Virus record (IMG/VR): IMGVR_UViG_3300043772_003410
Location: 1-35,344 of that record
Direction: 5' to 3' (one strand)
DNA length: 35,344 nt
DNA from: a virus
Shown here one piece after another: positions 8,075 to 34,100 of the stretch. Under the pieces are notes generated by a model. That model ran no database searches. It had not been told where the DNA came from and worked only from the letters and a program-made list of their open reading frames with translations. Each line of letters begins with the position of its first letter. The stretch's first letter is position 1. The position numbers were made by a program, and so were the translations under genes.

Positions 8075-8710
8075 ATGATTTTAGATTTAAGAGAAATACC
8101 AACGGTGTGGATAAATCTTGATTCTGCAACAAAAAACGCAGAAGCAATGGAAAAAAAATTAAAAGATCATGGTTTTAAATACACTTATAGAAAATCCGCT
8201 TGTGTAATAGAGCCTCCTGAAAACACACACTCGTCAATAAAACATTATGTTGGATGTGGACAATCCCATTTAGATATTTTAGAAAATAAAGATTACGGAA
8301 CCCCACTTCTGATACTTGAGGATGACGCCGAGTTTACAGAGGCGTTTAATCCTGTTATGAACATACCAGATAATGCAGATGGCGTATATCTTGGCATTTC
8401 AAAGGGAAATGTGTATTATCAGAGCAAAAGATATAATCCAGACTATTTAAGAATAGCAGGCATACTGGCCACACACGCTATTCTTTATATAAATGAAGAA
8501 TATAGAAAAAAAATGGCAGAGGTTGATAGGCATTGTATTTACAATTTAAAAAGACCTTGGGATCTTGGTGCAGCTGGATTGCAACAAGAATTTAAAGTAT
8601 ATACTCCCAGCAAACCGTATTTTTATCAAGCAGATCACAGGGATTCGGCCAATAAATGGGAAATGCTCACAGACAGTCCTCTTGAAAATAGAAATTCTCC
8701 AAATCTATGA
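8075..8710 (+). CDS. GT25-family glycosyltransferase
   Basis: Putative sugar transferase of CAZy family GT25 (LPS galactosyltransferases and collagen galactosyltransferases). The 211-aa protein begins with the family opening VWINLDSATKNAEAMEKKL (11-29). It carries GCGQSHLDIL at 61-70 (family pattern GCxxSH) and the metal-binding ILEDDAEF at 80-87. It is cytoplasmic with no membrane segment and somewhat shorter than typical bacterial members (about 250 aa). It is the first gene of the island operon, starts at the predicted promoter +1, and overlaps the next gene as ATGA. The acceptor is unknown. Collagen-type targets are worth noting because a giant collagen-like protein is encoded downstream. 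Confidence 0.85.
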   Translation: MILDLREIPTVWINLDSATKNAEAMEKKLKDHGFKYTYRKSACVIEPPENTHSSIKHYVGCGQSHLDILENKDYGTPLLILEDDAEFTEAFNPVMNIPDNADGVYLGISKGNVYYQSKRYNPDYLRIAGILATHAILYINEEYRKKMAEVDRHCIYNLKRPWDLGAAGLQQEFKVYTPSKPYFYQADHRDSANKWEMLTDSPLENRNSPNL

Positions 8711-9495
8711 TAACTTACAATACTATTGGTCGGCATGGAAGATTTGGAAATCAGATGTTTCAGTATGCAGCTCTTTACGGGATTGCAAAAAAGAACAATT
8801 ATGAATTTGGTGTTCCGAGTAAAAATAGAAGCCCAGATGAATACATAGATTACTGTCTACCAGATTGTTTTAAAAATTTATCAGCAAAAGATTCTTCTGG
8901 ATTAATACAAAAAAATTATGCAAAAGAAAAAAGTTTTTCTTTTGATGAAACAATTTTAAATATTCCAGACTTTACAGATATATCTGGTTACTTTCAAACA
9001 GAAAAATATTTTAAAAATTATAGAAGTAATATTTTAAAAGAATTTGATTTTTATCATGATATCAAAACTAAAGCAACCGATATACGATCAAAAATTACCG
9101 ATCCAGTTATAAGTTTACACATAAGGCTAGGAGATTATCTTTATCTCACAGATAGCCATCCAGTTTGCAGCCAAGAATACTATAAAGAAGCATTGAGCAA
9201 TTTGCCCAATGATATTTGTATCTATATTTTTAGTGATGATATGTACAAAGCTGCAAATATATTTCAATCTTTAGATAGAAAGTATATCTTTCCAGAAACC
9301 AATGATAAATATCTTGATATGTGTCTAATGACTATGTGTGATTATCATATTGTAGCAAATAGTTCTTTTAGTTGGTGGGGCGCTTGGCTGTCAGATTCTA
9401 AAAAAGTTATTGGGCCATCCAAATGGTTTGGAGATAATCCAAATATGCCAAGAGACTGGTCAGATATTTATTGCAAAGAATGGATGGTTATATGA
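8707..9495 (+). CDS. GT11 alpha-1,2-fucosyltransferase-like glycosyltransferase
   Basis: 262-aa member of the GT11 family, which transfers L-fucose (rarely another deoxy sugar) from GDP-fucose to galactose-type acceptors. Three family motifs are visible: HGRFGNQMFQYAA at 10-22, the donor-binding HIRLGDY at 138-144 (the usual HxRRxDY has R at the fourth place; here L), and the C-terminal NSSFSWWGAWL at 218-228. Length is normal for bacterial FutC/WbsJ-type enzymes. It overlaps both neighbours by ATGA. No GDP-fucose synthesis genes are seen in the window, so the donor must come from the host or from genes elsewhere. Confidence 0.9.
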   Translation: MITYNTIGRHGRFGNQMFQYAALYGIAKKNNYEFGVPSKNRSPDEYIDYCLPDCFKNLSAKDSSGLIQKNYAKEKSFSFDETILNIPDFTDISGYFQTEKYFKNYRSNILKEFDFYHDIKTKATDIRSKITDPVISLHIRLGDYLYLTDSHPVCSQEYYKEALSNLPNDICIYIFSDDMYKAANIFQSLDRKYIFPETNDKYLDMCLMTMCDYHIVANSSFSWWGAWLSDSKKVIGPSKWFGDNPNMPRDWSDIYCKEWMVI

Positions 9496-10241
9496 AAATT
9501 GCTATTTGTTTATCAGGACAACCTAGATTTTTAGATATTGGTTTTCATTTTTTACAACGATATCTAATAAACCCAAATATTCAGCATGAAATTGATTTCT
9601 TTATCCACAGTTGGTACGATTCGGATGAAGTTGGAAATTTTTTTGATTCAGCTCAGGAATCTCAAAAAAGCATGGTAGGAAAAATTTCAGTTGACTCTGA
9701 TAAACTTTTAATAAATTATTATAAACCAAAAAAATTTATAATAGAACCTCAAAAAAATTTTGATAAGTATACAAAAAAATTAAAAACATCAACAAACGCA
9801 AAACAAAATATTTTGTGCAGTTTGTTTTATTCGATGTATATGGCAAACAATCTTAAAAAAGATTACGAAATACAAAATAATTTTATTTATGATATTGTAT
9901 TAAGAACGAGAACGGATATAGTATATTTTAATGAAATAATTTTTGATAATTATATAAATAATCTGAATAATATAAGTGTCCCCAAAAAATATTTTTTGGA
10001 CCAAGAATCATTTAATAATAAAAATAAACCGATGCCAGATATATTTGCTTTTTCAAATAGTAGAAATATGGATATTTTTTGTTCCGTGTATCCTGAATTT
10101 TTAAATTTAAATTCTGAAATAGATCCAGTATATGGAGAAAATTATTTGGGCGAATGGGTTAGAAATAAAAATAAATTAAATATATCACCAATAGACTGTA
10201 ATTTAACTTTTGTACAAAGAACAAATTTGGCAATTATATGA
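9492..10241 (+). CDS. LSGQ-R family protein, putative glycosyltransferase (paralogue 1)
   Basis: 249-aa protein; I chose the ATG at 9492 because it overlaps the upstream stop (ATGA) and begins the conserved IAICLSGQPRF. Two later island genes (10996, 15248) share the same plan: a first strand ending in LSG-x-x-R, a hydrophobic-aromatic FFIHSWYD-like strand (about 38-45), and a central YDIVLRTRTDIVYF that gives the family pattern D-x-V-I/L-x-x-R-x-D. The R-x-D could be a nucleotide-sugar/metal site, as in GT-A enzymes. Exact family not recognised; glycosyltransferase is inferred from motifs and surroundings. Confidence 0.75.
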   Translation: MKIAICLSGQPRFLDIGFHFLQRYLINPNIQHEIDFFIHSWYDSDEVGNFFDSAQESQKSMVGKISVDSDKLLINYYKPKKFIIEPQKNFDKYTKKLKTSTNAKQNILCSLFYSMYMANNLKKDYEIQNNFIYDIVLRTRTDIVYFNEIIFDNYINNLNNISVPKKYFLDQESFNNKNKPMPDIFAFSNSRNMDIFCSVYPEFLNLNSEIDPVYGENYLGEWVRNKNKLNISPIDCNLTFVQRTNLAII

Positions 10242-10999
10242 ATGTAGTAATACCACTAGTAGGCGAAGGAAAACGTTTCCAATTAGGTGGCTTTGAAGAA
10301 CCAAAGCCATTAATAAAAATTTTTAATAAACCAATTCTCCAACATTCCATAGAGTCTTTAAATATTGATGGTAATTATATTTTTGTTGTTAGAGAGTATG
10401 AAAACAACAAATGGAACCGAGAGCTGTCCTCTCTAATAAAATCGTTGAAACCAAATTCAAAAATTATTTTATCAAAAAAGTTGACTAGAGGTGCTGCAGA
10501 ATCTGTTTTATTAGCAAAAGAAAACATAAATGATGACACGCCTCTTATAGTAACAAATTGTGACCAATATATAGATTGGCAAGAAAACGAATTAAATAAT
10601 TTTTATTTTTCTATTTTAGAAAAAAATTGCGACGCACTTGTAACAACTTTTAATCATATAAATCCGGAACACATAAAAATAAATGAAAAAACTCCATACT
10701 CATTTATTAAAATAAATAAAGATGGTGACGCAACCCAATTTTCTGAAAAAATTGCAATAAGCAAGTTGATGTTAAATGGTATACATTTTTGGAAGAGAGG
10801 TAGTATGTTTGTTCAATCTGCTGAATCTATTATTGAAAAAAATATAAATTATAATAATGAATTTTATGTATCGTTAACTTTTAACGAATTAATTCAAAAA
10901 TATAAAGTAAAACATTTTCAAATGACAGATTCAAGTTTTTATTCATTGGGAACACCAGAAGATGTGGAGTTATTTAAAAATAAAAAAATACTAAAATGA
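10238..10999 (+). CDS. Sugar-phosphate nucleotidyltransferase
   Basis: 253-aa NTP-transferase-fold enzyme that would join a nucleoside monophosphate to a sugar phosphate, giving the activated donor. It shows the nucleotide-binding GEGKRF at 9-14 (variant of GxGTRM/F), the sugar-nucleotidyl lysine motif EPKPLI at 21-26, GAAES at 85-89, and a metal-binding TNCDQYID at 106-113. It ends with a short SLGTPEDVE motif typical of these enzymes. No left-handed beta-helix or acetyltransferase domain is attached. Base and sugar specificity cannot be read. It overlaps both neighbours by ATGA, within the glycosyltransferase operon, and would activate whatever sugar the island makes. Confidence 0.88.
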   Translation: MNVVIPLVGEGKRFQLGGFEEPKPLIKIFNKPILQHSIESLNIDGNYIFVVREYENNKWNRELSSLIKSLKPNSKIILSKKLTRGAAESVLLAKENINDDTPLIVTNCDQYIDWQENELNNFYFSILEKNCDALVTTFNHINPEHIKINEKTPYSFIKINKDGDATQFSEKIAISKLMLNGIHFWKRGSMFVQSAESIIEKNINYNNEFYVSLTFNELIQKYKVKHFQMTDSSFYSLGTPEDVELFKNKKILK

Positions 11000-11748
11000 A
11001 AACAGCATTACTATTATCTGGACATTACAGAACATTCGACACAACATCCAATTTTTGGAAAAAAAATGTAATAGATCAATTTTGTTGCAACGATCACGTT
11101 TATCTCTCTACCTATAATACAGATGGTAGGAGATTAAATAAAGAAATTGACATACGCACTCAAGGATCTTTAAATAATGCTTTATTTGATGGAACATTTT
11201 TAAATTTAGATAAAATAAAAGAAAAAAATATTTTTAAAGACATTATATTTGACGATTATCAAATTATAGAACAAAAAGAAAATTTTAAAGAAAAAACAAA
11301 ATTAATTAAAAATATAATATTTAAAACTTTTAATCAAGACAGAAGAATGGAGTGGTTCTTTTCTCTTTATTATAAAAAACTGGATGGTTTAAAAAATTTA
11401 ATAAAAAAAGATTTATATGACGTTGTTATTTGCAGTAGACCTGATTATGCGCCGAAATCAGTATTTTTTAATAGTGAAACATTAGATAAAGAAAAAATTT
11501 ATCTATCAAGATTAAATATAGAAAACGGTTATCATGATTTTTTTATAATAGGTTCACCGCAAAATTTATTAAAAATATTTAATATATACCACGATATAAA
11601 TGATATTTTAATTCCCCATGTAATAAATCTTGGTAAAATTAATGAAATAACATGTGGACATACTTTACTTACACACTATATTGATGATATATTAAAATTA
11701 AAAGAAAATATAGTAGAAATTGAATTGAATGGAGAATTAGTAAGATGA
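10996..11748 (+). CDS. LSGH-R family protein, putative glycosyltransferase (paralogue 2)
   Basis: 250-aa protein sharing the plan of 9492-10241 and 15248-16090: an opening TALLLSGHYRTF, a VYLSTYNTDGR strand near 36-46, and the central YDVVICSRPDYAPK carrying the R-x-D motif. Very Lys/Asn/Ile-rich, like the rest of the island. Function is inferred as glycosyl transfer from the shared motifs and the coupled operon. The late segment HDFFIIGSPQNLLKIF resembles the region where such enzymes check the acceptor sugar, but that is speculative. Overlaps both neighbours by ATGA. Confidence 0.72.
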   Translation: MKTALLLSGHYRTFDTTSNFWKKNVIDQFCCNDHVYLSTYNTDGRRLNKEIDIRTQGSLNNALFDGTFLNLDKIKEKNIFKDIIFDDYQIIEQKENFKEKTKLIKNIIFKTFNQDRRMEWFFSLYYKKLDGLKNLIKKDLYDVVICSRPDYAPKSVFFNSETLDKEKIYLSRLNIENGYHDFFIIGSPQNLLKIFNIYHDINDILIPHVINLGKINEITCGHTLLTHYIDDILKLKENIVEIELNGELVR

Positions 11749-12575
11749 AAATAAAAATGTATTTTGTTACGTATAATCGACCGAACGATTTAAATGAAAC
11801 TCTGGAATCTTTTTTTAATACTGATCTATTTTTAGATAGTGACTATGACCAAGTTGAAAAAAACGTCTATGTAGTAAATAACCACTCTAACTTTATATTA
11901 AATGAAAAATTTAAAAACAAAGTAAAAGTACTCCATAATGTGCTTAGGCCGGATTTTTCCTGTGGCCATTTAAGTCGAAATTATAATGAAATTTTTATTA
12001 ATGGATTTAAAAATTTAAACAATCCCGACTGTGATATCTTAATGCACAGCCACGACGATAATTATTTTGATAAAAACTTTTTTAAAAATTTATTAGAATA
12101 TAATAAAAAATATGATATTATAACTTTTTCTCAAGGCTGTGGTTTTATGGCTTACACGCCTGAGGCAATAAAAAAAGTAGGTATGTGGGATGAAAGATTT
12201 TGCACAATTGGTTATCATGAAGGTGATTATTTTCTTAGAGCGATAAAATATAATGCTGATAAGACTAGCATAAATGATCCAAATCAACTTAGAACTTGGA
12301 ATCCGCTCCCGCATATAGTTTATAAGATGCCTCACACACATTTGAACACAGCTCATAGAGAAAGCCAAAATTACTATTCAATTTGCAGGCAACTTTTTGA
12401 ATTAAAATGGTCTGGAGTCAAAGATACAAATTTTTCAGCAAAAATATTAAATATTTTGTCTGACCCAGCGATACCTATGCACATGATGTATCCATATTTT
12501 GAAAAAGATCTATATGATATTCAAACTAAATACTTTAAACAAATAGACCTAAATGGAAGGAAATTTATGTCATGA
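11745..12575 (+). CDS. GT2-like glycosyltransferase
   Basis: 276-aa GT-A fold protein. The start IKMYFVTYNRPNDLNETLES is the classic GT2 opening. VYVVNNHSN at 41-49 is the second strand, HSHDDNYF at 101-108 the DxD-like metal site, and VGMWDERF (145-152) with GYHEGDYFLRA (156-166) the acceptor/catalytic ED-type motif common in GT2 and GT27-like enzymes. It lacks a membrane anchor. The late part is His/Met-rich and of unknown purpose. Coupled by ATGA to the genes on either side. Donor and acceptor are unknown. Confidence 0.85.
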   Translation: MKIKMYFVTYNRPNDLNETLESFFNTDLFLDSDYDQVEKNVYVVNNHSNFILNEKFKNKVKVLHNVLRPDFSCGHLSRNYNEIFINGFKNLNNPDCDILMHSHDDNYFDKNFFKNLLEYNKKYDIITFSQGCGFMAYTPEAIKKVGMWDERFCTIGYHEGDYFLRAIKYNADKTSINDPNQLRTWNPLPHIVYKMPHTHLNTAHRESQNYYSICRQLFELKWSGVKDTNFSAKILNILSDPAIPMHMMYPYFEKDLYDIQTKYFKQIDLNGRKFMS

Positions 12576-13258
12576 AATTATTTAAATACGAAGAATTAAA
12601 ATCAAATATAAATGGTTTAAAATTTATTCCAAATTTATTGGAATACAATAACAATGACGATTGGATAGAAAATGTCTATATGTCAAATACAGTGACAAAT
12701 ATAAATGAAAAACACCAAAAAATTACACAAGAATTTTCAGAAAAAAATAAATTAGTCTTAAAATCATTAATCGATGATCTCAAAGCAAAAAATATGTTTA
12801 ATGTTATTCTTGAAATAGGAGTAAATAGAAGCGGAGAACATTCTTCAACTCAATTCATACTAAATAATAAAACCAAGGATACAAAATATATCGGTATTGA
12901 TATGCAACCCGGTTTAATTGCCAGTATTTATAGTGAACAACAAAATAATTATGGTTTGGCAACAGATTCAAGTAATTACGACCAAATTTTAAAATATATT
13001 AATAGTTTAGGTGTCTCTAAAATAGATTTATTCATCATAGATGGCTGGCACTCTGTCAATCAAGTAGTCAAAGACTGGAAGTTTACAGATATTTTAAATT
13101 TAAATGGTCACGTTTTAATGCATGACACAAACTACCATCCAGGCCCTTATTGTGTATATGAAGCTATTGATGAAAATTACTATAAAAAAGAAAAACACTT
13201 ATCTTCAGAATTATATGATTGGGGTGTAGCAACAGCTACAAAAATTAAAAATTATTGA
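12572..13258 (+). CDS. Class I SAM-dependent methyltransferase (Methyltransf_24-like)
   Basis: 228-aa protein with a Rossmann methyltransferase core: motif I VILEIGVNRSGEHSS at 78-92, acidic ribose-binding strand YIGIDM at 106-111, and IDLFIIDGWHSVNQVVKDW at 151-169. That last segment, with GHVLMHDTNYHPGP at 179-192, is characteristic of the Methyltransf_24 / cephalosporin-hydroxylase-like group often found in polysaccharide clusters, where members O-methylate sugars. Residues 1-70 form a charged helical leader. It is the last gene of the ATGA-coupled run that began at 8707; the next gene starts one base after its stop. Confidence 0.85.
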   Translation: MKLFKYEELKSNINGLKFIPNLLEYNNNDDWIENVYMSNTVTNINEKHQKITQEFSEKNKLVLKSLIDDLKAKNMFNVILEIGVNRSGEHSSTQFILNNKTKDTKYIGIDMQPGLIASIYSEQQNNYGLATDSSNYDQILKYINSLGVSKIDLFIIDGWHSVNQVVKDWKFTDILNLNGHVLMHDTNYHPGPYCVYEAIDENYYKKEKHLSSELYDWGVATATKIKNY

Positions 13259-13259
13259 A

Positions 13260-13580
13260 ATGAAAATTTTTAATTTAAAAGATATGCATAGAGGATGGTT
13301 TATTGGTGATTTTGAGCCAAGTGTGTTAAAAACAAAAGATTTTGAAATTGGAATTTTAACACACAAAAAAGATGAAACGTGGCCGAAGCATTATCACAAA
13401 ATTGCCACAGAATATAATGTATTATTAAAAGGAAAAATAAAATTTAATAATACAATAATAGATTGTGGAGATATTTTTATTTTTGAGCCAAATGAAGTAT
13501 CAATTCCAATTTTTTTAGAAGACTGTCAAATTTTATGTGTTAAAACGCCTTCAGTTATAGGTGATAAATATATATTGTAA
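13260..13580 (+). CDS. Small cupin-domain protein
   Basis: 106-aa single-domain cupin. WPKHYHKIATEYNVLLKGKIKF (about 41-62) matches cupin motif 1 with metal ligands H44, H46 and E51. GDIFIFEPNEV (71-81) matches motif 2, which normally carries a further His; here that His appears replaced. Similar lone cupins in sugar loci act as epimerases or isomerases of keto-sugars, or as sensors. It starts at the second base after the methyltransferase stop and is followed 12 bases later by the RuBisCO-like gene, so a joint sugar-phosphate role is plausible but inferred. Confidence 0.75.
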   Translation: MKIFNLKDMHRGWFIGDFEPSVLKTKDFEIGILTHKKDETWPKHYHKIATEYNVLLKGKIKFNNTIIDCGDIFIFEPNEVSIPIFLEDCQILCVKTPSVIGDKYIL

Positions 13581-13592
13581 TAGGAGACTAAT

Positions 13593-14789
13593 ATGAATTT
13601 ATTTGTAAATGAAAATGATTTAGACAAAAAAAAATACTTCATAGTAAATTATAAAATAGAAACTAATAAAAATTTAAAAGAAGCTGCATGGAATATTGCA
13701 ATAGGTCAAAGTGTTGGAAATCCAAACGTAAGAAATAAATGGGAAACAGAAAAGCTATTTGAAGATCATTCGTGTTTAATTTTGGCAAATGAAAGCGAAC
13801 TTGCTAAAAAAGTTGAAGGAGAAGTAAAAATAGCTTTTCCAATAATTAATACGTGCTGGGAAACCGATGGAATAAGCCATCTACTATGTCAAATTCTTGG
13901 AGGTCATGTTGATATAGATTTAATAAAAAAATGTAGAGTTTTATCAATCAGTTTTCCAGATACTGTAAAAAAGTATTTTTTAAAACCAAAATTCGGAATA
14001 ACTGGAATTAGAAGTTTTACGGGACAATATAATAAACCGCTATTTGGTGCTATTATAAAACCAAAAATAGGAATAAGCCCAGAAACTCTTCTTGATATGG
14101 TAAAAGAACTGGTCGATGGTGGTGTTGATTTCATAAAAGAAGATGAGATAATGTCAAACCCTTCTTTTTGTCCTTTAAACAAAAGAGTAGAATTAATATC
14201 AAAATACCTTTCCACACAGTCTAAAAAAGTGGTATTTTGTCATACAATAAATTGCGATCCCCACATATTAGAAAGTCGCGTAAAAGAAGTTTATTCTATG
14301 GGTGGAAATGGAGTGCATATAAATGTATGGAGTGGTTATGGTGCATATAATAGCATCAGAAAATTAAATCTTCCTTTGTATATCCATTTTCAAAGTAGTG
14401 GGGCTAAAGTGATTACAAATAAAACTAATCAATTTAGTATTAGTTGGACTGTAATTTGTCAGATTGCTAGTATGGTAGGCGTTGACACAATACAGACAGG
14501 AATGGTGGGTGGTTATAGCAACGACGATCCGGAAGAAATATTAGATTGTATAAAAATTTTACGTGAAGGAAACACGATACCGGCACTAAGTTGCGGTATG
14601 CATCCGGGCCTAGTTGAAAAAATTACATCTCTGGTAGGAACAGATTATCTCGCAAATGCCGGGGGCGCCGTTCATGGCCACCCAAATGGAACATTGTCTG
14701 GATCTTTTGCAATGCGCCAAGCAATCGATAAAAATTATGGAAAAGAATATAAAGAAGCAATCAAAAAATGGGGTAAAGTTGATGCTTAA
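13593..14789 (+). CDS. RuBisCO-like protein (form IV)
   Basis: 398-aa homologue of the RuBisCO large subunit. Barrel motifs align clearly: GAIIKPKIGIS (K156/K158, equivalent to spinach K175/K177), GGVDFIKEDE (K182, D184, E185, equivalent to carbamylated K201 and metal ligands D203/E204), IHFQ (H265 for H294), PALSCGMH (S333 for S379) and AGGAVHGHP (G357/G358 for G403/G404). Loop 6 reads GMVGGYSND, so catalytic K334 is replaced by Tyr; R295 becomes Phe and H327 becomes Gln. True carboxylation is therefore not expected. It is more likely an enolase, isomerase or decarboxylase on a phosphorylated keto-sugar, as for MtnW or the apionate-pathway RLPs. A strong AGGAG precedes the ATG, the best ribosome site in the island. 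Confidence 0.93.
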   Translation: MNLFVNENDLDKKKYFIVNYKIETNKNLKEAAWNIAIGQSVGNPNVRNKWETEKLFEDHSCLILANESELAKKVEGEVKIAFPIINTCWETDGISHLLCQILGGHVDIDLIKKCRVLSISFPDTVKKYFLKPKFGITGIRSFTGQYNKPLFGAIIKPKIGISPETLLDMVKELVDGGVDFIKEDEIMSNPSFCPLNKRVELISKYLSTQSKKVVFCHTINCDPHILESRVKEVYSMGGNGVHINVWSGYGAYNSIRKLNLPLYIHFQSSGAKVITNKTNQFSISWTVICQIASMVGVDTIQTGMVGGYSNDDPEEILDCIKILREGNTIPALSCGMHPGLVEKITSLVGTDYLANAGGAVHGHPNGTLSGSFAMRQAIDKNYGKEYKEAIKKWGKVDA

Positions 14790-14810: not shown

Positions 14811-15251
14811 ATGAAAATAATATCACATAGAGGAAATTTAAATGGCCCCGATAGCTCAATCGAAAATAATCCAAAATTTATCGAAACAGCAGTAAAAGCT
14901 GGCTTTGATGTAGAGATTGATGTTTGGTATTTAAATAATCATTTTTACTTAGGTCATGACAATCCCGTTTATCAAGTTAGTGTAGACTGGTTAAAAACCA
15001 TGCCTTTATGGTGTCATTGTAAAAATAAAGAAGCTTTAATAAAACTTCTTGACAATGATGTTCACTGCTTCTGGCACGAATCGGATGAGGTTACTTTAAC
15101 AAGTAAAAATTATATATGGAATTATTATAAAAATATTTTTCCTACAAAAAAAAGTATTATGGTTTTACCGGAAATGCAAGAAAATATAAATTTTAATAAT
15201 TTTTATGGTATATGCACCGATTATCCAGAAAGATATGTGAATTTATTATGA
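14811..15251 (+). CDS. Compact glycerophosphodiester phosphodiesterase-like protein
   Basis: 146-aa TIM-barrel-type GDPD/PI-PLC-like domain, far shorter than ordinary GDPDs (about 240-300 aa). It keeps the hallmarks: HRG at 6-8, the metal pair in FDVEIDV (E35, D37), GHD (H49) and the terminal CTDYPERY, equivalent to the family's TD-x-P closing motif. The middle of the barrel is condensed. Such short versions occur in polysaccharide loci. It could hydrolyse a phosphodiester on a glycan or lipid carrier. It lies 21 bases after the RuBisCO-like gene and overlaps the next gene by ATGA. Confidence 0.75.
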   Translation: MKIISHRGNLNGPDSSIENNPKFIETAVKAGFDVEIDVWYLNNHFYLGHDNPVYQVSVDWLKTMPLWCHCKNKEALIKLLDNDVHCFWHESDEVTLTSKNYIWNYYKNIFPTKKSIMVLPEMQENINFNNFYGICTDYPERYVNLL

Positions 15252-16090
15252 ACGTCGCAATACTTTTAAGTGGACATTTTAGAACAACAGAGTATCAAAA
15301 GTTATTTAATCTTTATAAAAATAATTTAATTGATATAAATAAAAATTATAATTTTGATTTTTTTATAAGTACTTGGTCGGACACAGGTTTAAGAAAAAAC
15401 TTTGATTATGATTTAGACAGAAATGATGGAATTGTTCCAGGCGATAAGATAGAAGAACAAAAAATAAAAGATATATTCAATCCAGTTTTTTTAAAAATTG
15501 AAAATTTTGAAGAAAAATACGATTATTTTAAACAAAAAACAAAAAAAATATATGAACTGCGAGACGAATACATAAAAAATTTTTTAATAGACCCCAACCT
15601 ACTTTATAATAGAATTTTAGCAAATTGCTCAATGTGGTACAAATGGTCAGATGTAGAAAAATTAAAAAACAATTACAAAACATCAACAAATAAAAAATAT
15701 GACTGTGTAATAAAAACTAGATGTGATTTAATTTTTAAAAAACCTTTTCCTTTTGATTTAAAAGAATACTCCAACAAAAAAATTATAACACCACCGTGGC
15801 CTGATACACGTAGGCCATACAGCACAGATTTAGATTTTAATAAACAAATAAATGATTGGTGGATGGCTGGAGATGAAAGCTTAATTGAAATTATAAATTC
15901 ACTGTATGATTCTTATGAAAACATTTTTGAAGAAATGAAAGAACCGGATAAAATAAAAGATTTTTTAAATCCACATAGACTTCCTGTATATTTTTTAGAA
16001 AAAAATGGAGTTGATATTGCAGCAATTCACAGACTGCCAATTCCATGTACGAATCAAACTAGCATTTGTTCAAGAACAAATATTTTTTAA
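15248..16090 (+). CDS. LSGH-R family protein, putative glycosyltransferase (paralogue 3)
   Basis: 280-aa protein from the ATG at 15248, which overlaps the GDPD stop (ATGA); a start at 15212 would overrun that gene. Opens VAILLSGHFRT, has FDFFISTWSDTG at about 38-49, and the central YDCVIKTRCDLIFK with the R-x-D motif, matching paralogues at 9492 and 10996. A late DWWMAGDES segment and an Arg/Pro-rich HRLPVYF end may shape the acceptor site. It ends the transcription unit before the RibB promoter. Function is inferred. Confidence 0.73.
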   Translation: MNVAILLSGHFRTTEYQKLFNLYKNNLIDINKNYNFDFFISTWSDTGLRKNFDYDLDRNDGIVPGDKIEEQKIKDIFNPVFLKIENFEEKYDYFKQKTKKIYELRDEYIKNFLIDPNLLYNRILANCSMWYKWSDVEKLKNNYKTSTNKKYDCVIKTRCDLIFKKPFPFDLKEYSNKKIITPPWPDTRRPYSTDLDFNKQINDWWMAGDESLIEIINSLYDSYENIFEEMKEPDKIKDFLNPHRLPVYFLEKNGVDIAAIHRLPIPCTNQTSICSRTNIF

Positions 16091-16156: not shown

Positions 16157-16765
16157 ATGAAAAATATAAATAAAATTTTAAATGATGTTAAACGTGGAAA
16201 GCCAGTCATCATCATCGATGATAGCAATAGAGAAGATGAAGCAGATATAGTTATTGCAGCAGAAGCTGTAAATGAATATAATCTTGTTTTTTCTATGCGT
16301 CATGCAAAAGGTTTAATGTGTATCCCATGCACACAAGAAAAATTAAATCAGTTTAATATAAAAATGATGAATTCAAATGGTTTGGATGATTTGGGTACGC
16401 CATTTGCAACATCTATTGATGCAGTTGAAGGCACAACTACTGGAATGTCTGTCCACGATAGGCTAAAAACAATTAAAATTTTTGTAGATGAAAATTCTAA
16501 ACCAGGGCAACTAGCACAACCCGGGCATCTATTTCCATTATGTGGAAAGCCAAATCTCTTAAAAGATAGAAGAGGGCATACAGAATCATCTTTAGAATTA
16601 GTAAAGTTGGCTGGGTTTAAACCAATTTCAATTATAATTGAAATTATGAATGACGACGGAACCATGACAAAAGGCAATCAAATATACACTTTTGCCAAAA
16701 TATATGACTTAAAAATTATTACTGTGGATGAAATATATAATGCCGTTTATAACAAGAGCTTATAA
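16157..16765 (+). CDS. ribB: 3,4-dihydroxy-2-butanone 4-phosphate synthase (RibB)
   Basis: Converts D-ribulose 5-phosphate to L-3,4-dihydroxy-2-butanone 4-phosphate plus formate, normally the first branch of riboflavin synthesis. The 202-aa protein is near full length (E. coli RibB 217 aa) and keeps the signature motifs: DDSNREDEADIVIAAE (acidic metal/substrate loop, residues 21-36), FATSIDA and TTGMSVHDR, PGHLFPL, RRGHTESSLEL, and a IIEIMNDDGTM strand. No GTP cyclohydrolase II domain is attached. It has its own promoter and heads a set with an APH-type kinase, a HAD phosphatase and a transaldolase-family aldolase. This fits a dedicated sugar-phosphate use better than flavin supply, since no other rib genes are present. 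Confidence 0.95.
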   Translation: MKNINKILNDVKRGKPVIIIDDSNREDEADIVIAAEAVNEYNLVFSMRHAKGLMCIPCTQEKLNQFNIKMMNSNGLDDLGTPFATSIDAVEGTTTGMSVHDRLKTIKIFVDENSKPGQLAQPGHLFPLCGKPNLLKDRRGHTESSLELVKLAGFKPISIIIEIMNDDGTMTKGNQIYTFAKIYDLKIITVDEIYNAVYNKSL

Positions 16766-17699
16766 CAGAATAAACTATAATAAAAATAATCTTTCAATAA
16801 TAAAAATAAGTGAAACTGAAAGATTACTTGATGAAATAAATTATTATAAAAACATACCAGAAGATTTAAAATATTTTTTTCCTAATTTTTATTCTTCAAA
16901 AGAAGAAAAACCATACAGTTTAGAACTGGAATATTATAGCTATAAAAATATAGCTCACTATTTTATACAAGAGTCTTTTGGGTTGGTATTTTGGGAATCT
17001 GTTTTAAAAATTTTATTTGATATTATTAGTAGATTTGAAAATCATGTTTTGGATTTACCTAATGAAGAATCTAAAAAATATGCAAACATGATGTTAATAA
17101 ATAAAACAGAAAATGAATATTTTAATTTAAAAAATAAATTTTTATATTTTTCCAATCTTTGCTCTAAAAAATCTTTTAAATTAAACAATAAAATATATTT
17201 AAATTTTGAAGAAATATGGCCAGAAGTTAAAAAAAATTTAAATAATATAATAGAAAAAAATAATAAATTTTCTTTTATTCATGGCGATTTTTGTTTTTCA
17301 AATATTTTATTGGGTTACCACCCATCATTACCAGATAAAACTGTCAAATTGATAGATCCCAGGGGATCATTTGGTTTAAATGGCTGTTATGGGTTAAGTA
17401 TATATGATTATTCAAAACTTTTGCATTCTATTGATGGTGGTTATGAATCATTTATATATGATGAGTTTAAATTAATAGAAGACTCAGAAAATGATTACAG
17501 GCTCACATATAATATGACACAAAATAAAGATATAGCTTTATCTGTTTTTAAATCTATGACAGATAAAGAAAAATATAAAATATACAGTTTAATTCAAGGT
17601 TTAATTTTTGTTGGAATGTGCGCAAGACATTACGATGATTTAAACAGACAAAAAGCAATGTATTTGACTGGTGTAAAATACTTAAATGAAAGTCTATAA
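16728..17699 (+). CDS. APH/choline-kinase-like phosphotransferase
   Basis: 323-aa small-molecule kinase of the aminoglycoside-phosphotransferase fold. The catalytic loop is FIHGDFCFSNIL (HGD at 185-187, N192) and the metal-binding motif is VKLIDPRGSFG (D210-P211-R212-G213), a DPRG form typical of family members in capsule loci. The N-lobe is divergent; E67-L-E may be the hinge. It begins inside the ribB end (38-base overlap); the ATG at 16740 is an alternative start. Likely substrate is a sugar or sugar alcohol, inferred from neighbours RibB and the HAD phosphatase. Confidence 0.85.
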   Translation: MKYIMPFITRAYNRINYNKNNLSIIKISETERLLDEINYYKNIPEDLKYFFPNFYSSKEEKPYSLELEYYSYKNIAHYFIQESFGLVFWESVLKILFDIISRFENHVLDLPNEESKKYANMMLINKTENEYFNLKNKFLYFSNLCSKKSFKLNNKIYLNFEEIWPEVKKNLNNIIEKNNKFSFIHGDFCFSNILLGYHPSLPDKTVKLIDPRGSFGLNGCYGLSIYDYSKLLHSIDGGYESFIYDEFKLIEDSENDYRLTYNMTQNKDIALSVFKSMTDKEKYKIYSLIQGLIFVGMCARHYDDLNRQKAMYLTGVKYLNESL

Positions 17700-17705
17700 A
17701 AAATT

Positions 17706-18077
17706 ATGTTAAAAATTTGCGTTGACATGGACGGAACAATTTGTAAAAATAAAAATAAGGATCAAGATTATTATGATGTTGAACCAACAGAAAATTGTGT
17801 AAAAATTTTACAAAATTTAAAATCAAAAGGTTATTATATTGTGATCCATACCGCCAGAGGAATGAGAACTTTTAATAATAACCACGGTAGAGTTATAGCA
17901 GAACATTCTAAAAAATTAACAGAGTGGTTAAAAAAATGGGAAATTCCATTTGATGAATTATTGTTTGGAAAACCACACGTGGATTATTTTATAGACGACA
18001 AAGGATACAGATTCGATAATTGGGATAACGTTTACAATTTTTTAACAGAAAAAGAAAAGGAACAAAAAAATGTTTAA
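17706..18077 (+). CDS. HAD-superfamily phosphatase (capsule-type)
   Basis: 123-aa minimal HAD hydrolase without a cap domain. It contains motif I CVDMDGTIC (nucleophile D7, acid/base D9), motif II VIHTARGM (T49), motif III K89 in GKPHVDYF, and motif IV FIDDKG (D97/D98). The sequence type matches small HADs in bacterial capsule and LPS loci that dephosphorylate sugar phosphates. It starts 7 bases after the kinase stop and overlaps the aldolase start by 8 bases, so kinase, phosphatase and aldolase are one unit. Confidence 0.88.
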   Translation: MLKICVDMDGTICKNKNKDQDYYDVEPTENCVKILQNLKSKGYYIVIHTARGMRTFNNNHGRVIAEHSKKLTEWLKKWEIPFDELLFGKPHVDYFIDDKGYRFDNWDNVYNFLTEKEKEQKNV

Positions 18078-18882
18078 TTACTTTATAGATACAGCTGATT
18101 GCAAATATATCACTTCTTTGTGGGAAAAAATAAAAAAGAATTCATCACAAAAAGCTATGTTGGGGGTGACTACAAATCCAAATGCTTTTTTTAAAACTGG
18201 TGACTTGTCACTTAAACAATGGGTAGAAAAATCAAAAGAGTTATCTAATATTATCTGCGAGATTAGAGAAGATTATGAAGGAGAATTGCATATTCAATTT
18301 CCCAACTCAAATATAGATGAAAAATATTTTAAAAAATTTATAGATATTCTCCCAGAATTTTCAAATAACAATAAAGTAAAGCTATGTATTAAGATTCCAC
18401 CATTTCAAAATGCTTTGAATGTGGCAGAAAAATATAAAAAAAATTATAATTTAAATGTTACTGGAACCGCAGATGCATCGACAGCCTTGATGGCATTATC
18501 ATATGGTATAAAATACCTTTCTATTATTCCTGGAAGAATGGAAGAACAGGGATTAAACGCAAAATCTCATGTTGCTTTTATTCAAAAAAGAAAAAATAAA
18601 GAAAATTACATTATAACAGGAAGCATGAGAACACTAGAAGGATTAAAGTGGTGTGTAGAATATGGAACAATCCCCACCGTTGGAACAAAAGTATGGGATC
18701 AGATTACAAAAAATAATATAGAAGATGTTTTTAATTATAAGGATACTCCAGAAAATAGAATATCCATTGAAACAAAATTTGGACCATTCACAAGTATTGT
18801 AAATAATGATTTATCAAATTCATTTTTTAATGAAATGGATTCAAAAGGAAATAATTGTTTTAATGATTTAATAAATTATTAA
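18070..18882 (+). CDS. Transaldolase / fructose-6-phosphate aldolase family protein
   Basis: 270-aa TIM-barrel Schiff-base aldolase of the transaldolase/TalC-FSA group. Opening YFIDTADCKYI, then GVTTNPNAFF at 32-41, then LCIKIPPF with the probable Schiff-base lysine K108, NVTGTADASTALMALSYG, and LSIIPGRMEEQGLNA correspond in order to family motifs (IDTA, GVTTNP, VKIP, NVT, VGR). Longer than the minimal FSA/TalC (about 220 aa), with extra residues around 45-75 and a 30-residue C-terminal extension. Cyanophage TalC is the known phage relative, but here the gene sits with RibB, kinase and HAD in a glycan island. It could join a 3-carbon ketose unit to an aldehyde, making the sugar skeleton. Substrate unknown. 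Confidence 0.88.
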   Translation: MFNYFIDTADCKYITSLWEKIKKNSSQKAMLGVTTNPNAFFKTGDLSLKQWVEKSKELSNIICEIREDYEGELHIQFPNSNIDEKYFKKFIDILPEFSNNNKVKLCIKIPPFQNALNVAEKYKKNYNLNVTGTADASTALMALSYGIKYLSIIPGRMEEQGLNAKSHVAFIQKRKNKENYIITGSMRTLEGLKWCVEYGTIPTVGTKVWDQITKNNIEDVFNYKDTPENRISIETKFGPFTSIVNNDLSNSFFNEMDSKGNNCFNDLINY

Positions 18883-28162: not shown

Positions 28163-31100
28163 ATGCCAATAACAATTATTGACATCCTTAAACAGGCTAA
28201 TAGATCTGCTAATATTAGTGGCTCCGCTTTTTTCTATCTTTTAGATTCCGTAGATATAAACTTTAAAATTGACGGGATACAGGTAGATAATACTTTAGTA
28301 CCAGAATTAATAAAAAATAAAAAATATCTTCTTAAGAATGTTTCAAATTTACATCCAAATTTTGGTACAATAACCGGGGTTCAGAATAATGATATTGTGT
28401 TTTATAACACAGATATAGCTACTCCTGCCTTTCAAATTTTTATTGATGTAAGCAATTCAGTAACCAGAGGCGGACAGCTAGTTTATAACAGCCCAGAAGG
28501 CCAGCTTTATTATTATGATGGATTGACTGGAAGTGAGCAGTGGAAAGTCGTTGGTTCCGGTGCGGGATCTGGTGCAACAGGTGCAACAGGTGCAACTGGA
28601 CCGAGAGGTGGCACAGGAAATACCGGAGCATCTATAACATCTCTTTACATTCAAGGTGGAGATCTTTATTATGAAATTACAGATGTAAATGGAAATGTTA
28701 CAACAGGTTCTGCTGGACTTATTCCTCTTGGCCCCACTGGAGCAACAGGTTCACAAGGAATCCAAGGCCTTCAAGGTAATCGTGGAAATACGGGCTCCGT
28801 TGGTCCGGTAGGGTATGATGGACGCCGAGGAGCACAGGGAACTCAAGGAATACAAGGCACACAGGGTTTATTTGGTTTACAAGGATTCCAAGGAATCCAA
28901 GGACTTGTTGGTTCTCAAGGAACACAAGGTTTACAGGGAATTCAAAGCCCACAAGGAACACAAGGTCTTCAAGGTTTTCAAGGAATTCAAGGTTTACGGG
29001 GTTCCCAGGGGTTACAAGGACTTCAGGGGACGCAATCCCCACAGGGACTCCAAGGAATCCAAGGTTTAGTAGGTTCTCAAGGCTTACAAGGTATTCAGGG
29101 AAATCGTGGATCAACAGGCTCTGTTGGTCCCGTTGGTTATGATGGGCGTAGAGGCCCCCAAGGCATACAAGGTTCTCAGGGAATACAAGGATTTCAAGGT
29201 CTACAAGGAAACCAAGGAATCCAAGGCATTCAAGGAATTCGTGGACCGCAAGGAACACAGGGACTACAAGGAATTTTTGGAGTTCAGGGGTACCAAGGTC
29301 TCCAAGGAGTTCAGGGTTTACAGGGAACACAAGGAACCCAAGGAATTTTTGGTATTCAGGGCTACCAAGGAATTCAAGGTATACAAGGAAATGTTGGCTC
29401 TCAGGGTATTCAAGGCATTCAAGGTATTATTGGAAACAGAGGAAATACTGGTTCAGTAGGACCTGTTGGATATGATGGGCGTAGAGGATCGCAGGGAACT
29501 CAAGGAATACAAGGTATTTTTGGAAACCAAGGACTACAAGGAATCCAAGGATCGCAAGGTATTCCCGGTCAAGCTGCAGCACAAGGATATCAAGGTCTCC
29601 AAGGTGTACAAGGCTTGCTTGGTATTCAGGGAATCCAAGGCCTGCAGGGAGCACAAGGAATACAGGGTGCTCAGGGTAGACAAGGATTGCAGGGTCTACT
29701 TGGCAATCAAGGAACGCAAGGGATTCAAGGAACACAAGGATTCCAAGGTGTTCAAGGAATACAAGGATCAAATGGAAACCAAGGTATACAGGGTATCCAA
29801 GGCATCCAAGGAACTCAAGGTGTTCAAGGAATTATTGGATCTAGAGGAAACACTGGTTCTGTAGGTCCTGTGGGATACGATGGTCGCCGTGGCACACAAG
29901 GAACGCAGGGATTACAAGGTTTATTTGGAAACCAAGGACTACAAGGAATCCAAGGATCGCAAGGTATTCCCGGTCAAGCAGCTGCACAAGGATACCAAGG
30001 CCTTCAAGGCGTCCAAGGCTTGCTTGGTATTCAAGGAATCCAAGGTCTACAAGGATTGCAGGGAAACCAAGGAACTCAAGGTGTTCAAGGTATACAAGGA
30101 ATTTTTGGTATTCAAGGAATTCAAGGAATTCAAGGTACGCAAGGCGTTCAGGGGCGCCAAGGGGTACAAGGAACACAGGGCGTACAAGGAATACAGGGAC
30201 TTGTGGGTTCTCAAGGAACTCAAGGTCTTCAAGGTATTCTTGGAATTAGAGGAAATACTGGTTCCGTTGGACCTGTAGGATACGATGGCCGTCGCGGAAC
30301 CCAAGGTGCTCAAGGCATACAAGGTTTAATTGGAACCGGAGTACAAGGTATACAGGGTGTACAAGGTATCCGAGGAAATGATGGTTCTCAAGGAATCCAA
30401 GGAATTCAAGGATTTTTTGGTGTACAAGGAATTCAAGGAGTTCGGGGATTCCAAGGAATCCAAGGCATACAAGGTCAAACTGGAATACAGGGTATTCAGG
30501 GAACCCAAGGTCTGCAGGGCATACAAGGTGCTCAGGGACTGCAGGGAGTCCAGGGAACACAGGGTCTTTTTGGTGTAAGAGGTAATACTGGTTCAGTTGG
30601 TCCTGTAGGTTATGATGGTCGTAGAGGCTCACAGGGTATACAAGGAGCCCAAGGAATTCAAGGGCGTCAAGGTTTGCAAGGTTTGCTCGGAAACCAAGGC
30701 ACTCAAGGTTTGCAAGGGTTGCAGGGATCTCAAGGAACTCAAGGTCTACAAGGTCTCCTCGGTACACAAGGAAGTCAAGGAATCCAAGGACTACAGGGGG
30801 TTCAAGGAACCCAAGGAATACAGGGTCTTCGTGGAAATCAAGGTCTCCAAGGTCTTCAAGGAACTCAAGGATTACAAGGTCCTAAAGGAGATTCAAGCTC
30901 CGGTTCTTCTGGATACAATTCTGGAATACTTTTCAGATATGAAGAACCAAACTCAATATTAAATCCAGGAACATTCCAATTAAATATTTGTGATTTCCAA
31001 AATCCAGGTGGCGGTGGAGTTGGTCTTTGCCCACAAAATTCTGTTTCAAACCCGTCAGACCCGACTTTAATATTCATTTCAAGCGCAGACGCAAATAGCA

Positions 31101-34100
31101 TTGGAATTTCTGGTTATATAAACACTTGGTGGGGATCACCAAATGAACCAAAGGGATATTTGTATATTCGTGAAAGAAAGTTTGATTCCGATGAATATAT
31201 TTTAGTTTATGAATTAACTTCAATAAATCAACCCGGTTCAGATGTTTATTATGAATATGATGATGTAGACGATTATTATGCGTTTCCTATAAGATATCTT
31301 TCTGGTGAAACTGGCCCGTCACCGGGAATTACGTATGCATTTAATTTCTATCCAACAGGATTTAGTGGCGCAACATCTGGTGGAATACAGGGAATTCAAG
31401 GATCTCAAGGAATACAAGGATCACAAGGTTTACAGGGTCCACAAGGAATCCAAGGTAGACAGGGAATACAGGGTATTCAAGGCTCCCAAGGAATTCAAGG
31501 GATACAAGGCCGTCAAGGATTGCAAGGAATTGGTGGCTCTCAAGGAACTCAAGGTTTACAAGGAATATTTGGCCCCCAAGGAACTCAAGGCCTACAAGGA
31601 ACTCAAGGTCTTCAAGGTATTCTTGGAATTAGAGGAAATACTGGTTCCGTTGGACCTGTAGGATACGATGGTCGCAGAGGTGTCCAAGGTGCACAGGGTT
31701 TGCAGGGAATTCAAGGAATCCAGGGGCAGCAAGGATCACAAGGAATTCAGGGACTACAAGGCAGTCAAGGAATTCAAGGAATACAAAGCCCACAAGGAAC
31801 TCAAGGTTTACAAGGTATAGCGGGTTCACAGGGTACTCAAGGTCTACAAGGTCTTGCAGGTTCACAGGGAACCCAGGGCATACAAGGAATTCAAAGCCCA
31901 CAGGGTACCCAAGGCCTTCAAGGTCTTATTGGACCACAGGGTACACAAGGGCTTCAAGGAATTATTGGAACCCAAGGCTTACAAGGCATTCAAGGCTTGC
32001 GTGGTGCACAAGGAGCTCAAGGTCTTCAAGGACTTGCAGGTTCTCAAGGAGCTCAAGGTCTTCAAGGGCTTGCAGGATCTCAAGGAGCTCAAGGTCTTCA
32101 AGGGCTTGCAGGATCTCAAGGGGCTCAAGGTCTCCAAGGACTTTTAGGAACACAAGGAAGACAAGGCTTACAAGGTATTGGTGGATCCCAAGGAACTCAA
32201 GGTCTTCAAGGACTTTTAGGAACACAAGGAGCTCAAGGCCTACAAGGGATTATTGGTTCTCAAGGAACTCAAGGTCTTCAAGGTATTGTTGGAATTAGAG
32301 GAAATACCGGATCAGTTGGGCCTGTTGGATATGATGGTCGTAGAGGTATACAGGGGACCCAAGGTGTTCAAGGTATCCAAGGGTCACAAGGAATTCAAGG
32401 TATAGCTGGCTCACAAGGTGCCCAAGGATTACAAGGAATTCAAAGTCCACAGGGAACTCAAGGATTACAAGGTATAGCTGGTTCACAGGGTGCCCAAGGC
32501 TTACAGGGAATACAAGGTATTCAAGGGTCTCAAGGAAGACAAGGTATACAAGGACTTGTAGGTTCTCAAGGAACTCAAGGTCTCCAAGGTGTTTTGGGTT
32601 CTCAAGGAACACAAGGTATCCAAGGGATTATCGGTTCTAGAGGAAATACCGGATCAGTAGGACCTGTCGGTTATGATGGCCGCAGAGGAACACAAGGAAT
32701 ACAGGGTATTCAAGGTATTCTTGGTAGACAGGGCATTCAAGGTCTTGTAGGACCGCAAGGAACACAAGGTATACAAGGAATTCAAAGTCCACAGGGAACT
32801 CAAGGACTTCAAGGAATTGTTGGCTCACAGGGAACTCAAGGCCTCCAAGGGCTTTTAGGTTCTCAAGGAACACAAGGTCTACAAGGTATTGCTGGCTCTC
32901 AAGGAACACAAGGTATTCAAGGAATTGCTGGTTCACAAGGAACACAAGGTCTTCAAGGATCACAAGGAATACAAAGTCCACAGGGAACTCAAGGACTTCA
33001 AGGACTTCAAGGTTTACAAGGCCGTCAAGGCATTCAAGGTATTGCTGGGTCTCAAGGAACTCAAGGTCTCCAAGGGCTTTTAGGTTCTCAAGGAACACAA
33101 GGCCTTCAAGGAATTATTGGTTCACAGGGAACTCAAGGACTTCAAGGACTTCAAGGTTTACAAGGCCGTCAAGGCATTCAAGGTATTGCTGGTTCTCAAG
33201 GAACACAAGGTCTTCAAGGGCTTGTAGGTTCTCAAGGAACTCAAGGTCTGCAAGGAATTGTTGGTTCTCAAGGAGCTCAAGGTCTTCAAGGAATTCTTGG
33301 AATTAGAGGAAACACTGGTTCTGTAGGACCTGTTGGATATGACGGTCGTAGAGGAATACAAGGAGCGCAAGGCATTCAAGGTATTCTTGGTGTTCAAGGT
33401 ATTCAAGGTATTGCTGGGTCTCAAGGAACACAGGGAATTCAAGGAACCCAGGGTCTCCAAGGTATTCTTGGAACACAGGGAGCACAAGGACTTCAAGGTC
33501 TGCAAGGTCGTCAAGGAACTCAGGGCCTTCAAGGTATTGCAGGATCGCAGGGAGCTCAGGGCCTTCAAGGAATTGCAGGATCTCAAGGAACTCAAGGTAT
33601 TCAAGGTATTGTGGGTTCACAGGGAATTCAAGGTATTCTTGGAATTAGAGGAAACACTGGTTCGGTTGGACCTGTAGGATATGATGGTCGTAGAGGAATA
33701 CAGGGAATTCAAGGAACTCAGGGAATTCAAGGTTTACAGGGTTCTCAGGGAACTCAAGGCATACAAGGTGTACAGGGAATACAGGGAAGACAAGGAACTC
33801 AGGGACTTCAAGGTATTGTAGGTTCTCAAGGAACGCAAGGACTCCAAGGAATTGTTGGCTCGCAAGGCACTCAGGGTTTGCAGGGAATTGTTGGTTCCCA
33901 AGGAACACAAGGTCTCCAAGGTGTTGTAGGGCCACAAGGAACTCAAGGTATACAGGGAATTCAAAGCCCGCAGGGAACTCAAGGTATACAGGGTATACAA
34001 GGTTTGCAGGGAAGACAGGGAATACAGGGAATACAGGGTCTGCAAGGAATTGGTGGTTCACAGGGAACTCAAGGCTTACAAGGTATTGGTGGATCGCAGG

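Follow-up and report, generated by a model that had tools for sequence, protein, structure and literature searches.

MtnW, a form IV (IV-YkrW) RuBisCO-like protein (RLP), is the 2,3-diketo-5-methylthiopentyl-1-phosphate enolase, and in R. rubrum an RLP of the MTA-shunt type works together with a cupin. To our knowledge, the RLPs with known reactions, that is, MtnW, OiaX and its relatives, and the MTA-shunt isomerases, act in salvage or catabolism.

The GOS survey found 65 marine RuBisCO homologs outside all known forms (PMC1821046), which were later summarized as IV-GOS among the RLP groups (PMC10173188). A 2025 landfill virome study lists viral rbcL under CO2 fixation, a function also reported there for IMG/VR viruses, yet clusters its own landfill viral sequence with “RbcL-like” proteins (PMC12607003). 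Given this listing, the view of the initial annotation that RLPs are rarely if ever discussed as T4-like phage genes is nearly right. The family described here resembles the landfill rbcL in comprising viral RuBisCO homologs, likewise present in IMG/VR; compared by description only, the two differ in that function, residue analysis, and cassette are not described in the main-text passages considered.

A RuBisCO-like protein in a T4-like phage contig

The window, by which we mean the whole 35,344-base contig analyzed (IMG/VR record IMGVR_UViG_3300043772_003410), carries T4-like core genes on both sides of the RLP stretch, including a gp21-type protease, gp22-type scaffold, gp23-type capsid, tail tube, UvsW/UvsY-like proteins, and gp44 and gp45 (clamp loader and sliding clamp), in agreement with the initial annotation of the RLP as a T4-like phage gene. 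At least one T4-like homolog is present in 21 of 80 related viral loci within the stretch of sequence covered.

The ORF at 13593–14789 (+ strand) encodes an RLP of 398 aa, as had been claimed, with Pfam matches to RuBisCO_large (PF00016, E = 2e-36) and the N-terminal domain (PF02788, E = 3.7e-4), and in both sequence and fold it has the two-domain large chain of the RuBisCO superfamily. Its AlphaFold2 model (mean pLDDT 92.6) matches solved structures over the whole length at Z 38–44; by VIA-align, MtnW 2oem (Z 44.1, 2.5 Å, 369 residues, 28% identity) and the form III-type 2cwx (Z 43.9) tie as the closest, and the C. tepidum-type IV-Photo structure 1ykw (Z 42.0) matches much as all the others do. 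The protein scores below every RuBisCO and RLP subfamily cut-off in NCBIfam, including those of MtnW (TIGR03332, 125.4 vs. 513.6 bits; PRK09549, 153.2 vs. 409 bits) and OiaX (145.1 vs. 700 bits). The best similarity is to form III RuBisCO of the archaeal AMP pathway (TIGR03326, 7.7e-54, 183 bits vs. a cut-off of 497; 2cwx, 6.8e-38).

The motifs K156-P-K158, K182-x-D184-E185, and GMVGGYSND lie where they had been reported; in the alignment they correspond to K175/K177, K201/D203/E204, and loop 6 of RuBisCO, respectively. In the 117 distinct full-length sequences compared (the window protein and 116 other members), the equivalents of K175, K177, K201, D203, and E204 are invariant, among them the carbamate lysine and the Asp/Glu metal ligands (K182/D184/E185) as identified by sequence. 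The K334 position is Tyr (Y308 in the window) in all 117, the alignment having recovered no loop-6 lysine. N123 to Gly, H294 to Gln, and G380 to Cys are uniform across the same 117; E60 and T65 are likewise replaced throughout, by Gly and Asn, a circular result as members were picked by a motif holding both. S379 is kept, as in form III.

Two finer residue claims required correction, both assignments being made by sequence alignment at 25–30% identity. The reference H292-I-H294-R295 corresponds to H265-F266-Q267-S268 of the window, so that R295, previously read as Phe, is Ser in the window and Lys in 84, Ser in 32, and Arg in 1 of the 117 members. The reported change of H327 to Gln holds for the window and fails as a family trait (His in 77, Gln in 40). 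The first conserved block, flagged as unlike the usual AAESSTGTW, proved to be a family signature (IGQSVGNPNVRN). The overall pattern indicates that the metal and proton-transfer machinery has been kept and that carboxylation and phosphate-site residues have changed. In the two pairs with unsaturated dS, selection on the gene is purifying, with dN/dS of 0.11 (window vs. L008) and 0.06 (L005 vs. L006).

In two trees built from different samples, a single branch (support 100/100 and 100/99) separates the family from the references sampled, which comprised forms I, II, II/III, and III, OiaX, the acid-sugar RLPs, and one protein each of the MtnW-like and MTA-shunt types but no IV-Photo or GOS sequence. 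The suspicion that the first conserved block marks a distinct RLP clade was therefore borne out, and the phylogeny proposed as a check places the family outside the true carboxylases and also outside the OiaX/acid-sugar and MtnW-like RLPs sampled. The MTA-shunt (DeepYkr-type) RLP, a single reference from a Mariluticola halotolerans plasmid with a very long end branch (3.92), joins MtnW rather than this family. The family may belong to the GOS set left unplaced in 2007, being abundant in environmental phages and present in SAR11, a comparison made by description only. A divergent RLP from an archaeal-group genome (L199:7093–8268, – strand), which lacks the GQSVGNP signature and a nearby nucleotidyltransferase, was missed by the motif filter and left out of the tree.

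MtnW, tied for the closest solved structure, also lacks the loop-6 lysine and keeps the carbamate and metal residues; the family differs in keeping K177, which is Gly in the sole MtnW-like reference. Form III has the same K175, K177, K201, D203, E204, and S379, whereas the family lacks K334, H294, R295, and N123 and falls outside the form III clade. OiaX, a decarboxylase by its NCBIfam name, and the acid-sugar RLPs are likewise RuBisCO-like and have sugar-derived phosphates as substrates, but they retain both H294-R295 and K334, the latter present also in reference forms I, II, II/III, and III.

AMG pipelines can label such genes “rbcL, CO2 fixation,” which would make this one an auxiliary gene for a true ribulose-1,5-bisphosphate carboxylase. 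The form III model as top NCBIfam match and the listing of viral rbcL under CO2 fixation in the landfill study speak for that reading, although the landfill sequence itself groups with RbcL-like proteins. Against it stand Tyr at K334, Gly at N123, and Gln at H294 throughout the family, together with the changes at E60 and T65 (in part selected by the motif filter), a score far under the 497-bit cut-off, placement outside the carboxylase clades in both trees, and the absence of phosphoribulokinase among the scanned ORFs of the window. We rejected the carboxylase reading on residues, score, and clade, and regard it as extremely improbable; that the protein is a noncarboxylase is close to certain. 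Judged from its sequence, the window protein is an RLP in the form IV sense, without residues essential for carboxylation. The pipeline label is ill fitting for this family, and viral “rbcL” genes belonging to it are to be kept out of tallies of CO2-fixation auxiliary genes.

The RLP–nucleotidyltransferase cassette

The genomic context of the RLP is our main result and the most informative part of the locus, one that the initial annotation had overlooked. In the window, the RLP sits among glycosyltransferases and sugar enzymes in an AT-rich stretch at about 8–19 kb (GC 25–30% vs. 33–40% in most surrounding T4-like genes). All window genes described here are on the + strand. They include a family 11 glycosyltransferase (8707–9495; PF01531, 2e-20), a DUF7796-like “SGxxR” protein (9471–10241; cluster c7, below the Pfam cut-off, TTG start as listed) that is a putative transferase of the glycan island, a nucleotidyltransferase of 253 aa (NTPt; 10238–10999; NTP_transferase PF00483, 2.7e-11), two proteins with a similar SGxxR start (10996–11748 and 15239–16090; likeness by eye, no Pfam match), and a Methyltransf_24-like protein (12572–13258; below cut-off) from a cluster, c6, that is represented in 29 RLP loci. 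Directly 5′ of the RLP is a small cupin-like protein of 106 aa (13260–13580; weak cupin sequence similarity only), and directly 3′ is a short GDPD-like phosphodiesterase of 146 aa (14811–15251). The latter has no Pfam or NCBIfam match but has invariant catalytic-type His/Glu/Asp residues (in HRG, EN, ExD, and GHD), and its top Foldseek match is the putative GDPD 2o55, with a probability of 1.00 but E = 5e-3 and TM 0.59.

Farther 3′ are RibB, a 3,4-dihydroxy-2-butanone-4-phosphate synthase (16157–16765; TIGR00506, 179.7 bits, just over the cut-off of 177.45), a putative APH/choline-kinase-like kinase (16728–17699; HGDxxxxN and IDP motifs by eye, no Pfam or NCBIfam match), a HAD phosphatase resembling capsule-biosynthesis EcbF/BcbF (17706–18077; TIGR01689, 1.3e-22, below cut-off), and a transaldolase/fructose-6-phosphate aldolase-like protein (18070–18882; profile matches). 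RibB, the kinase, and the transaldolase-like protein were considered as pathway-defining genes and dropped; their ORFs cluster with none from other RLP loci, and they are therefore not general RLP partners.

We clustered the ORFs of the window together with those of 108 related loci and excluded from the counts six loci with carboxylase-type proteins (n = 103). The NTPt cluster is found in 94 of the 103 RLP loci within five genes of the RLP, in 81 of them within two genes and nearly always on the same strand; in the window it lies three genes away. The remaining nine loci have no NTPt within the stretch covered. GDPD-like and cupin clusters occur in 79 and 59 of the 103, respectively. Gene order varies among these loci, and the islands are plastic. 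By profile, the NTPt best resembles sugar-1-phosphate nucleotidyltransferases, its closest match being 4evw, itself of unknown substrate. In the openly accessible literature, a scope outside which most subscription papers fall, we found no link between an RLP and a nucleotidyltransferase cassette.

The RLP–NTPt pair is also present in contigs of SAR11, Legionella, Elusimicrobia, Nanoarchaeia, and Sphingobacteriales. RLP-bearing SAR11 have the order GDPD-NTPt-RLP, and in Legionella a divergently oriented LicD-family gene (Pfam LicD, 1e-42) adjoins the pair. The initial annotation had suggested looking for bacterial relatives in sugar loci, which holds in spirit: the neighbors of cellular relatives are a sugar nucleotidyltransferase, glycosyltransferases, or LicD. 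In the SAR11 form of the cassette at about 41% identity (L092, L093, and L094), two NTPt genes flank the RLP; the upstream one reads PVAGPNINF where a GxGxR start is usual and may be inactive or altered. In a nanoarchaeal contig (L097:12003–13921), the place of the short GDPD-like protein is taken by a full-length GDPD-like ORF and a second NTPt, both close to the pair.

This context bears on whether the RLP could belong to a type already known from catabolism or salvage (MtnW, OiaX or another acid-sugar RLP, or an MTA-isoprenoid shunt isomerase) scavenging carbon or sulfur. The common fold (Z about 41–44 to MtnW structures) would suit such a role, the cupin adjoining the RLP recalls the MTA-isoprenoid pair of R. 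rubrum, and RibB and the transaldolase-like gene of the window hint at pentose phosphates. However, the family forms a clade of its own below the MtnW and OiaX cut-offs. In the plasmid loci read, OiaX and acid-sugar RLPs sit beside four-carbon acid sugar kinases or transporters and the MTA-shunt RLP beside mtnA; such genes were not seen next to this family, mtnA being absent among the ORFs scanned, and the partner here is a nucleotidyltransferase rather than a methionine salvage gene. We consider a catabolic or salvage function rather improbable.

HAD and PMM proteins in sister cassettes

Alignments of the NTPt, GDPD-like, and cupin families were scanned against viral sequences, yielding 532 to 594 relatives each. 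All three families far outnumber RLP-bearing loci in IMG/VR, and an RLP is missing from most of the 80 top-ranking loci for the NTPt and for the GDPD, by which the idea that the NTPt is exclusive to the RLP was rejected. The RLP-less loci differ in what accompanies the NTPt. Where NTPt and GDPD occur without an RLP, the NTPt is at least 400 aa long in 90 of 131 loci, 83 of these with an N-terminal HAD motif, whereas in 92 of 94 RLP loci it is a standalone protein of less than 330 aa. The fused HAD domain scores best against beta-phosphoglucomutase (beta-PGM) models, below their cut-offs. A separate phosphomannomutase (PMM)-like gene (PF03332, 1.5e-18) is found in ten cupin-bearing RLP-less loci. 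In SAR11 chromosomes, GDPD is directly followed by a HAD-NTPt fusion in seven of eight GDPD loci read, and most such loci (L453–L459) lie near glycosyltransferase or other polysaccharide-type genes. Some viral cassettes without an RLP have an HpaI/HpcH-type aldolase close to the NTPt (L277:9862–10539; a cluster of about ten loci), which is perhaps a further alternative partner.

In a set made nonredundant at 75% identity, with relatives below that level treated as independent, 58 loci have an RLP and no HAD/PMM protein, 33 have a HAD/PMM protein and no RLP, 10 have both, and 5 have neither (odds ratio 0.026, Fisher p = 1.6e-13). The NTPt queries were drawn from RLP cassettes, and any resulting bias would be toward standalone NTPts among the RLP-less loci. 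Strict exclusion was rejected in view of the roughly ten nonredundant RLP loci in which the same profile also detects a HAD domain; the HAD-fused NTPt itself occurs in four RLP rows of the trees. In the NTPt tree, for which the bootstrap had not fully settled, the RLP-partnered standalone NTPts of L021, L084, and L086 (100/99) nest inside the HAD-fused clade (97/89). A single origin of the RLP partnership was rejected on this tree (p_AU = 0.00076), with a minimum of three changes.

Given the NTPt partnership, the near-exclusion with HAD/PMM proteins, and more than one origin on the NTPt tree, the RLP appears to occupy the slot taken in sister cassettes by sugar-phosphate enzymes of the HAD type, often phosphomutase-like. 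The simplest reading is that RLP and HAD-type proteins each feed a phosphorylated substrate to one NTPt family. Proton-transfer chemistry cannot move a phosphate, so the RLP and mutase steps are not identical, and there must be a difference in the substrates or in the step before. As the beta-PGM scores fall below cut-off, the HAD proteins could also be phosphatases rather than mutases, and the shared slot leaves the reaction unfixed.

The same data argue against the RLP being a mere passenger of glycosyltransferase islands that co-occurs with the NTPt through shared mobility. Island plasticity with varying gene order would fit a passenger, as would the patchy carriage in cellular genomes (3 of 297 SAR11-family and 4 of 22 Legionella-group genomes sampled). 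A passenger would not be expected to show HAD/PMM exclusion or the AU test result, nor to persist with the NTPt in chromosomes of unrelated phyla while keeping invariant active-site residues and low dN/dS where measurable. We find this explanation quite improbable.

Proposed role and distribution

We place at even chances the proposal that the RLP supplies the phosphorylated substrate of the NTPt by metal-assisted enolization, without CO2, and so serves nucleotide-activated sugar or polyol synthesis in glycan cassettes; enolization of this kind had been supposed in the initial annotation. In a first step, an RLP dimer with carbamylated Lys182, a metal at Asp184/Glu185, and Lys156/Lys158 would enolize a phosphorylated ketose-type substrate to give an isomer, an epimer, or an otherwise rearranged sugar phosphate; with Tyr at the K334 position, no CO2 would be added. 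The adjacent nucleotidyltransferase would then join the resulting phosphate to a nucleotide, and a co-encoded transferase (the DUF7796-like SGxxR protein, glycosyltransferases, or, in Legionella, LicD) would add the residue to a glycan. In sister cassettes, an NTPt-fused, beta-phosphoglucomutase-like HAD protein or a PMM-like gene would act in the place of the RLP. The cupin and GDPD-like proteins may also have roles in the cassette.

The main rival holds that the RLP makes a phospho-alcohol or polyol precursor for decoration (CDP-alditol, LicC/LicD-like), with the GDPD-like protein freeing an alcohol phosphate and the NTPt acting as a cytidylyltransferase instead of a sugar-1-phosphate enzyme. 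Such a route would accommodate the divergent LicD of Legionella, the GDPD family in 79 loci with intact catalytic residues, the full-length GDPD-like ORF near the nanoarchaeal pair, and the kinase-like ORF of the window, and a primary alcohol phosphate would require no mutase. However, the NTPt profile favors sugar-1-phosphate nucleotidyltransferases, the HAD/PMM partners of sister cassettes suggest sugar phosphates, and no LicD was found in the minority of phage clusters scanned. On balance the phospho-alcohol route seems unlikely.

Returning to supply of a sugar phosphate to the NTPt, a large and poorly studied branch of the RuBisCO family probably helps to build sugar coatings rather than to fix carbon. 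More tentatively, the RuBisCO fold may have been recruited to anabolic sugar-nucleotide synthesis in place of HAD-type phosphomutases or phosphatases, yielding an undescribed activated residue (perhaps keto, branched, or polyol) on phage or host glycans. If true, no earlier branch of the RuBisCO family would have had a role other than carbon fixation, catabolism, or salvage, and none would have been known mainly from viruses. The tie of a large, uniform, phage-dominated clade to a sugar nucleotidyltransferase would represent a new role for the fold and a direct route to a new activated sugar. Through the HAD/PMM slot swap, the function of the RLP can be tested with just four proteins, all small and soluble.

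In IMG/VR, relatives of the RLP are encoded at 168 or more loci, the best 80 being 55–78% identical. None of 50,697 deposited phage records carries the family, and the plasmid search returned only RLP/RuBisCO homologs at no more than 34% identity. Cellular relatives, sought in genomes with aligned viral members as the query, were found in SAR11 (58% and about 41% identity), Legionella (35–37%), Azospirillum, Elusimicrobia, Sphingobacteriales, Verrucomicrobiia, and archaea, with the sparse carriage noted above for SAR11 and the Legionella group; some of the short cellular contigs may be phage sequence within a bin. At one locus (L065:10001–11164), the RLP is split into two ORFs of 155 and 212 aa by a possible frameshift or sequencing error, and the locus was omitted for that reason.

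At its 3′ end the window has an open frame (28163–35344, + strand) that spans 2,394 aa or more and runs off the contig. It encodes a collagen-like protein with GxQ repeats (QGTQGIQG) and a recurring GNTGSVGPVGYDGRRG unit, and the many small ORFs listed in this region are shadows of its frame.
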